A DNA stretch of 64,000 nucleotides from Bacteroidota bacterium (GTDB lineage: Bacteria; Bacteroidota; Bacteroidia; Chitinophagales; Chitinophagaceae): NCBI GenBank assembly GCA_013286305.1, contig JABDFW010000003.1, forward strand, positions 30,287-94,286, in the 5' to 3' direction. A program made the position numbers and the translations under genes. Each line of letters opens with the position of its first letter. The stretch's first letter is position 1. Positions 1,499 through 58,139 of the stretch are shown here, one piece after another. The notes beneath the pieces are model-generated. The model was not told the DNA's origin. It searched no databases and saw only the letters and a list, made by a program, of their open reading frames with translations.

Positions 1499-2779
1499 AT
1501 GGTAAGAGATACTTTGGTTTTTGACCTTATAGCAAAAGAACTGGAACGCCAGCGCCACGGCATTGAGTTGATAGCTTCGGAAAACTTTACCAGCCTGCAG
1601 GTGATGCAGGCCATGGGCAATGTAATGACCAACAAATACGCTGAAGGCTACCCCGGCAGGCGTTATTACGGAGGTTGCGAAATAGTTGACCAAAGCGAGC
1701 AATTAGCGATAGACCGCTTAAAGCAGATATTTAACTTAGAATATGCTAACGTTCAGCCACACAGCGGCGCGCAGGCAAATGCAGCAGTGGCCTTAGCGCT
1801 TTTACACCCCGGCGATACAATTTTAGGGTTAGACCTTAGCATGGGCGGCCACTTAACACATGGCAGCCCTGTTAATTACAGCGGCAAATTGTATAATGCG
1901 CAGTTCTACGGGGTAAAGAAAGAGGATGGCCGCGTGGATTATGATATGATGGAGGCCAAGGCCCGCGAGGTAAAACCTAAAATGATCATTTGCGGAGCAA
2001 GCGCTTACAGCCGCGACTGGGATTACGAACGTATAAGAAAGATTGCCGATGAAGTGGGTGCTTTAATTATGGCGGATATTGCCCATCCCGCAGGCTTGAT
2101 TGCCAAGGGTTTATTGAACGACCCGTTTGACCACTGCCATATCGTTACTTCAACCACGCATAAAACGCTTCGCGGGCCAAGAGGCGGTATCATCATGGTC
2201 CGTAAGGACTTTGAAAACCCTTTTGGTATAAAAGATAATAAGGGCAACACACAGCCGATAAGCAAACTGCTTGACCTGGCGGTTTTCCCGGGCATACAGG
2301 GTGGCCCGCTGGAGCATATTATTGCTGCAAAGGCAATTTCGTTTGGCGAGATACTCACTGATGAATATACTGCCTATGCCAAACAGGTAATTATAAATGC
2401 ACAGGCCATGGCAAACGCCTTTATTGAAAAGGGCTACCAGATCGTGAGCGGCGGTACCGATAACCATTTATTGCTTATTGACCTGCGCAACAAAAACATC
2501 AGCGGTAAAAAGGCAGAACAGGTTTTGGTGCAGGCCGATATTACCGCCAATAAAAACATGGTGCCTTTTGATGATAAAAGCGCTTTTGTTACCAGCGGCA
2601 TCCGTTTTGGGGTGCCTGCCATTACTACCCGCGGCATGGTTGAAGAACACATGCAGTTTGTGGTAAACTCGGTAGACAAAGTGCTGATGCATGCCGATGA
2701 TGCAGTCATCATAGCCGGCGTAAAAGGCGAAGTAAACGAGTTTATGAAGCAGTTTAAACTGTACCCGGAATTGGGATGA
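1499..2779 (+). CDS. glyA: Serine hydroxymethyltransferase
   Basis: [38 protein letters not shown]; internal ATG at 1499 gives the standard N-terminus [11 protein letters not shown]. Confidence 0.97.
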
Positions 2780-2852
2780 CCTCACCCCCTGCCCCCTCTC
2801 CGCAGGCGGAGAGGGGAGAAGTACGATGTGTTTTTCAAGCATACCTATTTTT

Positions 2853-2899
2853 AAACTCCAAAACTGTCAGACGGGGACCGTCAGACAGTTTTGGAGTTT
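2853..2899. terminator. Hairpin between convergent glyA and metallophosphoesterase genes, overlapping the 3' end of the latter
   Basis: Inverted repeat aaactccaaaactgtc...gacagttttggagttt (16-bp perfect arms). Confidence 0.55.
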
Positions 2900-3714
2900 A
2901 CTTTTGTATTTGTTGCCGCATCCATTTGATAGGTGAGTATGTCGCCGCTTTTTAATACTTCTACGATCCGGTATCCCCTATACTCCGTTCCCCAATTGCC
3001 TGCAATGTGTGAGTCCCAGAAATAGCATTTGCCTTCGTTTTCTTTTACATTGTCCAGGTTATGGTCGTGGCCATGAAATATGGCCTTTAAATTCGGCTGC
3101 TGGTTAAAGAGGGCTATTATTTCAGGGCAATCAATACCGCCGCCAATGGCTTTGAATGGCGCAATATGCATGAAAACCATTACGTGCTTTTTGCTTTTGT
3201 ATTTATCAAATTGCTGCTTTGCCCAATTAACATCCGCGCATATATAATCTCCTTTTTCGTTGGCCGTATCAAGAATAATAAAAGCTGTACCGCCTTTATC
3301 AATTGTATAATTCAAAAGCATGCCCCATGTTTTTTCCCAAGCGGCGCCGTCAATCATGTCGTGGTTGCCGTGGGAAACATAATAAGGCATCTTCAATCCA
3401 TCCCATTTCTTTTTAACGATGGGGAGAAATGAGGGGTCATTATGAAACAGGTCGCCGTTTACCATGGTGAATTCCACTCCTCTGCCTTCTTTTTCTTTAT
3501 TAAGCCATTCTATCATTTTATCATGCCGAAATTCGTAGTCTGTTTCCGGCTGGCCGTAATGGCCATCTGATGCTATGGCAAACCGCAACAATACATCATT
3601 TACTGGGGGCATTGCAAATGAGGCCGGTGCAAACGCCTGCAAGGTGCTGCCCGCACCAATAACGATTACCCCTTTAAGGGTTAATTTCAAAAAATCCCTT
3701 CTTGACAGGGCCAT
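2881..3714 (-). CDS. Tat-exported metallophosphoesterase
   Basis: SRRDFLKLTLKG Tat signal; ASDGHYG, NGDLFHND, SHGNHD, FHGHDHN metallophosphoesterase motifs. Confidence 0.85.
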   Translation of the reverse strand: MALSRRDFLKLTLKGVIVIGAGSTLQAFAPASFAMPPVNDVLLRFAIASDGHYGQPETDYEFRHDKMIEWLNKEKEGRGVEFTMVNGDLFHNDPSFLPIVKKKWDGLKMPYYVSHGNHDMIDGAAWEKTWGMLLNYTIDKGGTAFIILDTANEKGDYICADVNWAKQQFDKYKSKKHVMVFMHIAPFKAIGGGIDCPEIIALFNQQPNLKAIFHGHDHNLDNVKENEGKCYFWDSHIAGNWGTEYRGYRIVEVLKSGDILTYQMDAATNTKVNSKTV

Positions 3715-27248: not shown

Positions 27249-27752
27249 ATGGAAAGAGTAAACCTGCGGTCATTCAAACAAAAGTCAAGGCACCATAAAA
27301 AGGCTTTCCGCCGCTTTTTGGGAAAGATAGAAAAGAACCCACCACGCGGGCTGCATAAAATGGCTGAAGAAATTGATAAAGAGGTATGGGCCGAAACTGA
27401 CTGCCTTAGCTGTGCCAATTGCTGCAAAACAATGACGCCCACTTTTACTGAAAAAGATATTAAACGAATATCACAACATCTTGAAATGACACCGGATGCA
27501 TTTAAAAGCAAATGGCTGCATTTTGAAAAGAAGGATAAGGATTGGGTAAATAATAAACAGCCGTGCCAGTTTCTTAACCTTAAAGACAATAAATGCTCCA
27601 TTTATATTGTGCGCCCTGAAAGCTGCGCCGGTTTTCCCCATCTTACCAAAAAGAAAATGGTGGATTATATTCATGTACACCAGCAGAATGTTGAATACTG
27701 CCCCGCAACGTATAAGATGGTGGAGAAGATGATGGCGTTGATAGAGATTTAG
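27249..27752 (+). CDS. YkgJ-family cysteine cluster protein
   Basis: TDCLSCANCCKTMTPTF...QPCQFLNLKDNKCSIYIVRPESCAGFP. Confidence 0.9.
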   Translation: MERVNLRSFKQKSRHHKKAFRRFLGKIEKNPPRGLHKMAEEIDKEVWAETDCLSCANCCKTMTPTFTEKDIKRISQHLEMTPDAFKSKWLHFEKKDKDWVNNKQPCQFLNLKDNKCSIYIVRPESCAGFPHLTKKKMVDYIHVHQQNVEYCPATYKMVEKMMALIEI

Positions 27753-27925
27753 TCCATGGCCCATAGTCCATGGTCCATAGCTAAAGGCAGCAGGTTTACG
27801 CTTCCTTTAACCATGCTCATTTGAATTTGCAAATTTCATTTATGATTTTCTGATTGATGTTGAACAGCATTATATCTGTCAACATTTCTTTCCCATGGAC
27901 TATGGACCATGGACTATGGACTGCT

Positions 27926-30227: not shown

Positions 30228-30300
30228 TAATACTTAAATATATAAGGCAGCAAACCTGTTTAAAGTAAATCCCGGAATATCATACACCGGGATTTTTTTA

Positions 30301-57137: not shown

Positions 57138-57162
57138 TAAAAAAAGCTCATATAATGAGCTT
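57138..57162 (-). terminator. Rho-independent terminator-like hairpin 3' of tRNA 3' half
   Basis: Minus strand AAGCTCA-TTATA-TGAGCTT followed by a T run. Confidence 0.7.
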
Positions 57163-57164
57163 AG

Positions 57165-57221
57165 TGGAGAATACCGGATTCGAACCGGTGGCCTTCCCGC
57201 AAATACTTGCGGGACGCTCTA
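57165..57221 (-). pseudogene. tRNA-Ala-like 3' half with substituted anticodon arm
   Basis: Minus strand TAGAGCG-TCCCGCAAGTATTTGCGGGA-AGGCCACCGGTTCGAATCCGGTATTCTCCA; T-arm and 3' acceptor strand identical to the intact tRNA at 57492-57565. Confidence 0.8.
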
Positions 57222-57464
57222 TACTTTTCTGAGTAATGCCTCGATATATTTTCTGCTTTTCTTCTTCTTTATTTCCTGTTCTCGATTGAGAGCCTCAAGC
57301 CGGTTTGTAAACACTTCCGTATATTTTAGTTCCCAGTCATTCGCTTTTTTAGTTGATTTTGAACCTGAATTTTTGTGCCGATAAAGCCTGTCTATCAAAT
57401 TTGATGTTTGACCAATGTAGTGTTGATCTAATGCAGAAGAATATATTATGTAAACATAGAACAT
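57219..57464 (-). CDS. Single-domain GIY-YIG nuclease
   Basis: MFYVYIIYSSALDQHYIGQTSNLIDRLYRHKNSGSKSTKKANDWELKYTEVF; GIY-YIG core (YVYII..YIGQT) and UvrC-like Arg/His. The longer ORF start at 57533 lies inside the tRNA, so ATG 57464 is preferred. Confidence 0.88.
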   Translation of the reverse strand: MFYVYIIYSSALDQHYIGQTSNLIDRLYRHKNSGSKSTKKANDWELKYTEVFTNRLEALNREQEIKKKKSRKYIEALLRKV

Positions 57465-57489
57465 CCTAAAAAGCTCACTTTGTGAGCTT
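57465..57489 (-). terminator. Terminator-like hairpin between tRNA-Ala and GIY-YIG ORF
   Basis: Minus strand AAGCTCAC-AAA-GTGAGCTTTTT; duplicate of the hairpin at 57138-57162 with a different loop. Confidence 0.6.
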
Positions 57490-57491
57490 AG

Positions 57492-57565
<74 letters not shown>

Positions 57566-58098
57566 ATTATAAAACTGAACCTGTACCAGTTGCCTTCCCG
57601 AATGCTTATCGGGACGCTCTAGCCAACTGAGCTAATCCCCCATTATAAAACTGAACCTGTACCAGTTGCCTTCCCGAATGCTTATCGGGACGCTCTAGCC
57701 AACTGAGCTAATCCCCCATTATAAAACTGAACCTGTACCAGTTGCCTTCCCGAATGCTTATCGGGACGCTCTAGCCAACTGAGCTAATCCCCCATTATAA
57801 AACTGAACCTGTACCAGTTGCCTTCCCGAATGCTTATCGGGACGCTCTAGCCAACTGAGCTAATCCCCCATTATAAAACTGAACCTGTACCAGTTGCCTT
57901 CCCGAATGCTTATCGGGACGCTCTAGCCAACTGAGCTAATCCCCCATTATAAAACTGAACCTGTACCAGTTGCTTTCCCGAATCCTTATCGGGACGCTCT
58001 AGCCAATTGAGCTAATCCCCCATTATAAAACTGAACCTGTACCAGTTGCTTTCCCGAATGCTTATCGGGACGCTCTAGCCAACTGAATTAATTCCCCC
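57566..58098 (-). repeat. Seven-copy tandem array of 76-bp tRNA-Ala-derived units
   Basis: Units start at 57566, 57642, 57718, 57794, 57870, 57946, 58022 (period exactly 76). Copies 1-5 are identical by eye; copies 6 and 7 carry substitutions. Minus-strand unit: GGGGGATTAGCTCAGTTGGCTAGAGCG TCCCGATAAGCATTCGGGA AGGCAACTGGTACAGGTTCAGTTTTATAAT. Confidence 0.93.
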
Positions 58099-58108
58099 AG
58101 GCGGGGTG

Positions 58109-58139
58109 CAAAAATAGGGTGCTGAAAGGTCTCACCAAA
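58109..58139 (-). promoter_or_regulatory. Bacteroidota-type promoter reading into the tRNA-like array
   Basis: Minus strand TTTG (58139-58136), 19-nt spacer, TATTTTTG (58116-58109), matching -33 TTTG / -7 TAnnTTTG. Confidence 0.6.

Follow-up and report, generated by a model that had tools for sequence, protein, structure and literature searches.

The window analysed here is a 64,000-nucleotide stretch of contig JABDFW010000003.1 from a Bacteroidota bacterium of the Chitinophagaceae (assembly GCA_013286305.1, contig positions 30,287 to 94,286). On its minus strand it carries a tandem array of tRNA-derived units next to an intact tRNA-Ala(GGC) gene, on whose other side lies a small open reading frame (ORF) for a GIY-YIG nuclease. 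We favour, by a narrow balance of confidence, a reading in which this minimal nuclease drives a chromosomal selfish element resident on tRNA genes, with the array as the 5' part of that element. The layout of the locus, its recurrence, its linkage to the nuclease, selection on the ORF, the symmetry of the half-tRNA units and covariation in the hairpin stem are matters of direct observation, and they are laid out first.

The locus at tRNA-Ala(GGC)

A first-pass annotation, made from the letters of the sequence, had described a head-to-tail array of seven 76-bp units beside tRNA-Ala(GGC). This is borne out by Tandem Repeats Finder (TRF; repeat at 57539-58099, period 76, 7.4 copies, 98% matches, 0 indels, score 1071) and by the ARAGORN and Rfam calls of the tRNA. 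The array directly adjoins the 5' end of the intact gene. Each unit comprises, as had been proposed, the 27-nt 5' half of tRNA-Ala and a hairpin at the position of the anticodon arm. Beyond the hairpin come roughly 12 nt from the variable loop and T-arm, then a short spacer that terminates in TTTTATAAT. The hairpin TCCCGA-TAAGCAT-TCGGGA stands in 7/7 units, unit 6 differing by a single base. The units have no acceptor 3' strand, again in agreement with the earlier description. The five copies reported as identical are units 1-5, those nearest the tRNA; unit 6 retains 96% of the tRNA 5' half and the outermost unit 7 retains 89%, so that decay increases with distance from the tRNA. The period of 76 and the absence of variable spacers uphold the earlier dismissal of a coding repeat and of CRISPR, respectively.

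The likeness of the units to tRNA did not survive. A T-arm-like stem had been thought to be kept; it is absent from the predicted fold of the unit and is not retained at other loci. That fold is not a cloverleaf, and in an Rfam scan no unit scores as tRNA at E<=1, with matches only to intact genes. Functional extra tRNAs are ruled out by this scoring together with the predicted fold. Apart from tRNA, the units gave only sub-threshold chance matches to known RNA families in Rfam. The count of seven copies is that of the assembly, a metagenome-assembled genome 70% complete; comparable arrays are present in the isolate genomes L076 and L086.

The second half of the locus had been overlooked: a terminator, the GIY-YIG ORF, and a hairpin-bearing piece of tRNA-Ala with a terminator of its own. 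The parts are as follows.

58107..58116, minus strand: promoter-like TATTTTTGCA, upstream of the outermost unit and common to an empty locus of the same genus
57566..58097, minus strand: array of seven 76-bp 5' units (sequence inspection, TRF, unit comparison)
57596..57614, minus strand: hairpin TCCCGATAAGCATTCGGGA of unit 1, recurring each 76 bp as far as 58070
57491..57565, minus strand: intact tRNA-Ala(GGC) (ARAGORN, Rfam)
57468..57489, minus strand: proximal terminator-like hairpin AAGCTCACAAAGTGAGCTTTTT, 3' of the tRNA
57219..57464, minus strand: GIY-YIG nuclease ORF, 81 aa, catalytic residues intact (Pfam E 7e-15)
57165..57222 (approximate), minus strand: 3' unit, a D-arm remnant of about 8 nt, a hairpin and the full tRNA-Ala 3' half
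57195-57214, minus strand: hairpin TCCCGCAAGTATTTGCGGGA of the 3' unit, at the anticodon-arm position
57141..57162, minus strand: distal terminator-like hairpin, a diverged relative of the proximal one

The ATG of the ORF lies 3 nt past the T-run of the proximal terminator, and its stop codon falls within the D-arm remnant of the 3' unit. The promoter-like motif, which we take to be the Bacteroidota -7 type TAnnTTTG, does not occur inside this array. The empty locus of the same genus (L139) has the same TATTTTTGCA motif, one tRNA-Ala and a terminator; array and ORF are absent. The native 5' flank seen there now abuts the outermost, most decayed unit, which places the array between promoter and tRNA, and thus the array is probably co-transcribed with the tRNA. 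The proximal and distal terminator copies both resemble empty loci in Aquimarina, and a synteny search on the DUF1232 side gave no useful result.

Recurrence and symmetry at other tRNA genes

The presence of such arrays in related genomes had been put forward as a check, and similar layouts do occur at many tRNAs across Bacteroidota. Searching with the nuclease protein sequence alone returned 80 loci, mostly in Bacteroidota, with some in Ignavibacteriota, Calditrichota, Cloacimonadota and Marinimicrobia. An intact tRNA on the same strand lies within 600 bp of the nuclease ORF in 61/80, mostly upstream, and at most of these tRNA-linked loci part of the tRNA is copied on the far side of the ORF; about half of the 19 loci with no tRNA nearby are interrupted by contig ends. 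The isotypes at 63 loci, two of this genome included, are Ala (46), Asp (6), Arg (3), Gly (3), Lys (2), Val (2) and Leu (1).

A search by DNA alone used the pattern TAGAGC-N0-3-TCCCG-N4-12-CGGGA over 395 genomes of the class and found it in 41, the reversed pattern being rare; outside Bacteroidota there was one match among six genomes. Many of the pattern loci adjoin matching intact tRNAs (Arg, Ala, Val, Thr, Met and the Ile/Ala pair of rRNA operons), and at two of them, L192 and L199, hairpin-bearing copies of tRNA-Ala stand in 16S-23S spacers between tRNA-Ile and tRNA-Ala(TGC). The nuclease is present in 31/41 pattern genomes versus 110/354 others (p 5e-8, with genomes that are not independent and no correction for phylogeny). 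For a hand-compiled list of 22 checked hairpin-tRNA genomes the figures, likewise uncorrected for phylogeny, are 20/22 versus 121/373. One genus has occupied, decaying and empty tRNA-Arg loci, a patchy presence that points to gain and loss.

Further copies are found in the genome of the window itself. Contig C2 has the same layout at tRNA-Lys(TTT), where five units, each near 73 bp and carrying TCCCGATTTTATCGGGA, lie before the tRNA; after it come a terminator, a GIY-YIG ORF, a hairpin with 3' half and a truncated second GIY-YIG ORF. Hairpin copies with no adjacent nuclease accompany tRNA-Arg(ACG), Thr(TGT), Gly(TCC) and Thr(GGT). At the first of these (L167, G000:C19:9500-14500, positions 1479-2920) four decayed copies come after the tRNA, their hairpins set in D-, anticodon and T-loops, and the ORF between the last two presumably resembles a DUF2807 protein. 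The other three lie in the tRNA cluster upstream of tuf (L168, G000:C36:13500-18500, positions 2066-3130), with hairpin copies ahead of the tRNAs and no nuclease found nearby. Separately, a different GIY-YIG gene (L014, G000:C69:13700-15200) has the palindrome TGCTGAATTTATTTCAGCA and its relatives in several copies on its flanks, which suggests a wider link of GIY-YIG genes and palindromes in Bacteroidota.

The general form of the occupied loci is promoter-(5' half+hairpin)n-intact tRNA-terminator-(GIY-YIG ORF-hairpin-3' half-terminator)m. In the 5' units of 23 loci 97% of the tRNA 5' half is kept, whereas the match to the 3' half drops to chance, through 87, 49, 26 and 19% identity per 8 nt; the 3' units of 48 loci keep 97% of the 3' half, and their identity to the 5' half drops through 90, 62, 45 and 33% per 6 nt. 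Since opposite halves are kept, the symmetry between the two kinds of unit is centred on the anticodon arm. At most of the 23 loci with 5' units, the first unit is preceded by TAnnTTTG or by another tRNA gene of the operon; the motif falls inside the array at only one. In arrays whose units are not all alike, divergence is usually greatest in the unit at the far end from the tRNA.

Many nuclease loci have no 5' unit, and the 3' unit is far commoner. Ten near-identical tandem modules of 457 bp, each a GIY-YIG ORF with the 3' part of tRNA-Met, stand at L232 (G178:C9:905300-911300); L233 (tRNA-Asn) has three 5' units and four ORF modules, L234 (tRNA-Pro) four ORF modules, L235 three in tandem, and L237 (tRNA-Ala) eight 5' units and two 3' units. 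Variations on the form include L236, where the ORF modules are placed 5' of the tRNA, and the Asp family, where the hairpin occupies the T-arm rather than the anticodon arm.

The nuclease and the hairpin

Among relatives of the nuclease, Y6, Y17, R27 and E63 are invariant, G19 is conserved at 99%, and the basic C-terminus KKKKSRKYIE is nearly invariant. With a ratio of nonsynonymous to synonymous change (dN/dS) of 0.02-0.43, the nuclease is under purifying selection. Its predicted structure, a confident model (predicted local distance difference test, 90), has as top PDB fold matches UPF0213 (1zg2) and Slx1 (6sei), a nuclease of branched DNA, ahead of I-TevI; the Slx1-type match has a template modelling score of 0.67 and a root-mean-square deviation of 2.0, with modest fold-search E-values (0.003-0.006). 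UPF0213 (1zg2) is also the best match by sequence, and profile matches to homing endonucleases are weak. Membership of a known defence family was considered and set aside, the PADLOC families giving one weak partial match (E 8e-4 over 29 aa). On the nuclease tree, tRNA isotype requires 21 changes versus 43.5 when shuffled, and on its 61 host-labelled rows 8 changes versus 28 for host class or phylum; nuclease lineages thus track tRNA isotype more closely than host taxon.

Across 35 distinct 18-nt hairpins, a hand-entered set in which one duplicate row is counted once and one hairpin comes from a T-arm, all seven pairs form in every sequence (100% paired), and double changes in the stem occupy 28 cells versus 8.5 in shuffles. 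The outer stem TCCCG/CGGGA is nearly invariant and the inner stem covaries. Hairpin loops are closer to the anticodon loop of their own tRNA than to those of other isotypes (12 types, p 0.0014, from a hand-compiled table), and the hairpin may therefore descend from the anticodon arm.

Proposed mechanism, rivals and precedents

Under the selfish-element reading, the Slx1-like nuclease would nick or cut DNA at the anticodon arm, most likely at the hairpin or cruciform itself. Recombinational repair between the flanking half-tRNA repeats would then copy units of 5' half and hairpin on one side, and modules of ORF, hairpin, 3' half and terminator on the other. Growth would take place beside the intact tRNA, as the usually stronger decay of the outermost units suggests, and a single intact tRNA would persist, being needed by the cell. 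Transcription would probably take in the 5' units along with the tRNA, no function being ascribed to the RNA, and the nuclease would be expressed at a low level by read-through, because its ORF begins right after the tRNA terminator. An amplified nuclease target had been among the options of the first-pass annotation, and as one option it holds up.

Several observations weigh against this reading. About 25 of 30 hairpin-tRNA loci found by DNA have no nuclease ORF alongside, which would require the nuclease to act in trans or to have since disappeared, and the genomes behind the co-occurrence are mutually non-independent. A divergent nuclease clade (L232, L235, L236) bears other hairpin sequences. 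The 81-aa protein is a single GIY-YIG domain with no separate sequence-specificity domain of the sort that classical homing endonucleases possess, and the clustering by isotype could in part be vertical descent at one locus. Collections of phages, plasmids and viral contigs gave no match, so horizontal spread is unsupported; phage or plasmid cargo was rejected on the same result.

Two rivals seem to us about equally unlikely. In the first, the transcribed 5' units yield half-tRNA or hairpin RNAs that bind an enzyme which cuts tRNA, or inhibit it. The enzyme could be the GIY-YIG protein itself, and the RNAs would serve as a decoy or antitoxin of the kind found in type III toxin-antitoxin systems. 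The placement of the array between a promoter-like motif and the tRNA, with the nuclease gene after the terminator, would suit such an arrangement, as would a stem conserved by covariation and the 97% of the 5' half kept in the units. However, many nuclease loci lack a 5' unit and the 3' unit is far commoner; 3' units hold the 3' half only and hence share no RNA product; the units neither fold nor score as tRNA; and the nuclease is like DNA enzymes and unlike a type III toxin. A decoy or sponge RNA had been one of the first-pass proposals. The array's probable transcription is compatible with it, but no result tips the balance towards it, and the mirror-image 3' units, the DNA-type nuclease and the amplification of its gene fit DNA breaks better.

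In the second, the normal anticodon arm is what the nuclease cuts, and the hairpin is an altered arm that it cannot cut, so that hairpin copies accumulate as cleavage-resistant scars. This would account for an arm replaced almost exactly in most redundant copies, for loops that resemble their own anticodon loop above chance, and for nuclease lineages that track isotype. Yet the essential intact tRNA would remain a permanent target, and a mere resistant scar needs no conserved, covarying TCCCG/CGGGA stem.

A mobile palindrome is more improbable still. Here the hairpin would insert into tRNA loops and be mobilised by the GIY-YIG nuclease, in the manner of repetitive extragenic palindromes and their associated transposases (REP/RAYT). 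Hairpins are indeed also found in D- and T-loops, in most of 12 genomes TCCCG hairpins outnumber the reversed pattern severalfold genome-wide, and L014 supplies a GIY-YIG gene flanked by other palindromes. Against these stand G006 and G009, which carry the nuclease and have no genome-wide hairpin excess; the many dispersed hairpins that look like terminators; and an arm that is replaced rather than interrupted. Least probable is that tRNA pieces were duplicated neutrally in tandem and decayed at random, with the nuclease playing no role: slippage makes tandem arrays and the outermost units are decayed, but the strong nuclease linkage and the covariation at about 12 tRNA types speak against it, and slippage alone, named earlier as the refuting case, fits ill because the same arm replacement and TCCCG/CGGGA stem recur at many different tRNAs.

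Partial tRNAs are usually attributed to integration of phages or of integrative and conjugative elements. Integrative elements in tRNA genes leave tRNA fragments as attL and attR (PMC9897764), and the partial tRNA copy at the far end of the present locus is similar. In contrast to them, the insert is about 330 bp, the GIY-YIG ORF is the only one between the tRNA copies, with no integrase or recombinase, the partial copies bear the hairpin, and 5' and 3' halves are both tandemly multiplied. REP/RAYT likewise links a conserved hairpin to a small nuclease; the present nuclease is GIY-YIG by Pfam and not Y1/HUH, and the hairpin lies in tRNA arms in tandem units, its dispersal not extending to every genome. 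Type III systems such as ToxIN share tandem repeats (here probably transcribed), a terminator and a small nuclease gene. They differ in that the repeats here are tRNA halves, an intact tRNA lies between, 3' units follow the ORF, the nuclease fold is another one, and the 5' array is missing at many loci.

The nearest precedent appears to be SegB, a free-standing GIY-YIG homing endonuclease of T-even phages that is reported to cut within tRNA genes and whose activity is required for tandem amplification of tRNA and segB (PMC13096335). The two systems would be similar in outline: in both, a GIY-YIG gene with an intact and selected core lies beside tRNA genes of many isotypes, near its target (a presumed one here), with gain and loss, and the tRNA region is tandemly amplified together with the nuclease. 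Unlike SegB, the present system is chromosomal, appears in no phage or plasmid collection, and has a nuclease of about 81 aa that is catalytic domain only; the extra copies are full-length tRNA genes for SegB and halves with a hairpin in the arm's place here. It is not classed as a homing endonuclease, because there is no specificity region besides the one domain and homing by it would be hypothetical.

To our knowledge, UPF0213 and Slx1 GIY-YIG proteins have not been tied to tRNA copies. No description of nuclease-linked half-tRNA arrays was found among open-access papers, in keeping with the first-pass remark that no named system has this layout. The half-tRNA copies described here have a systematic source, linked to a nuclease, and are spread over a phylum in tRNA operons and in two tRNA spacers of rRNA operons. 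More tentatively than for the locus itself, and on balance less likely than not, they may represent a new class of minimal element, mobile or selfish and widespread among Bacteroidota and their relatives. Its 81-aa nuclease would recognise structure, take a TCCCG-type hairpin set in tRNA arms as the site on which it acts, and amplify both its own gene and half-tRNA units about an essential tRNA gene. Such a class would parallel REP/RAYT and homing endonucleases on the GIY-YIG side while belonging to neither. Should the mechanism hold, an essential gene would be parasitised by a one-domain nuclease with the host left alive; the mechanism would explain tandem GIY-YIG arrays and add a source of mis-annotated tRNAs, and would offer a testable chromosomal counterpart of SegB-driven amplification.

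Elsewhere in the window, positions 27750-27921 hold two 14-bp tandem repeats, TAGTCCATGGCCCA and CCATGGACTATGGA, which are apparent near reverse complements.
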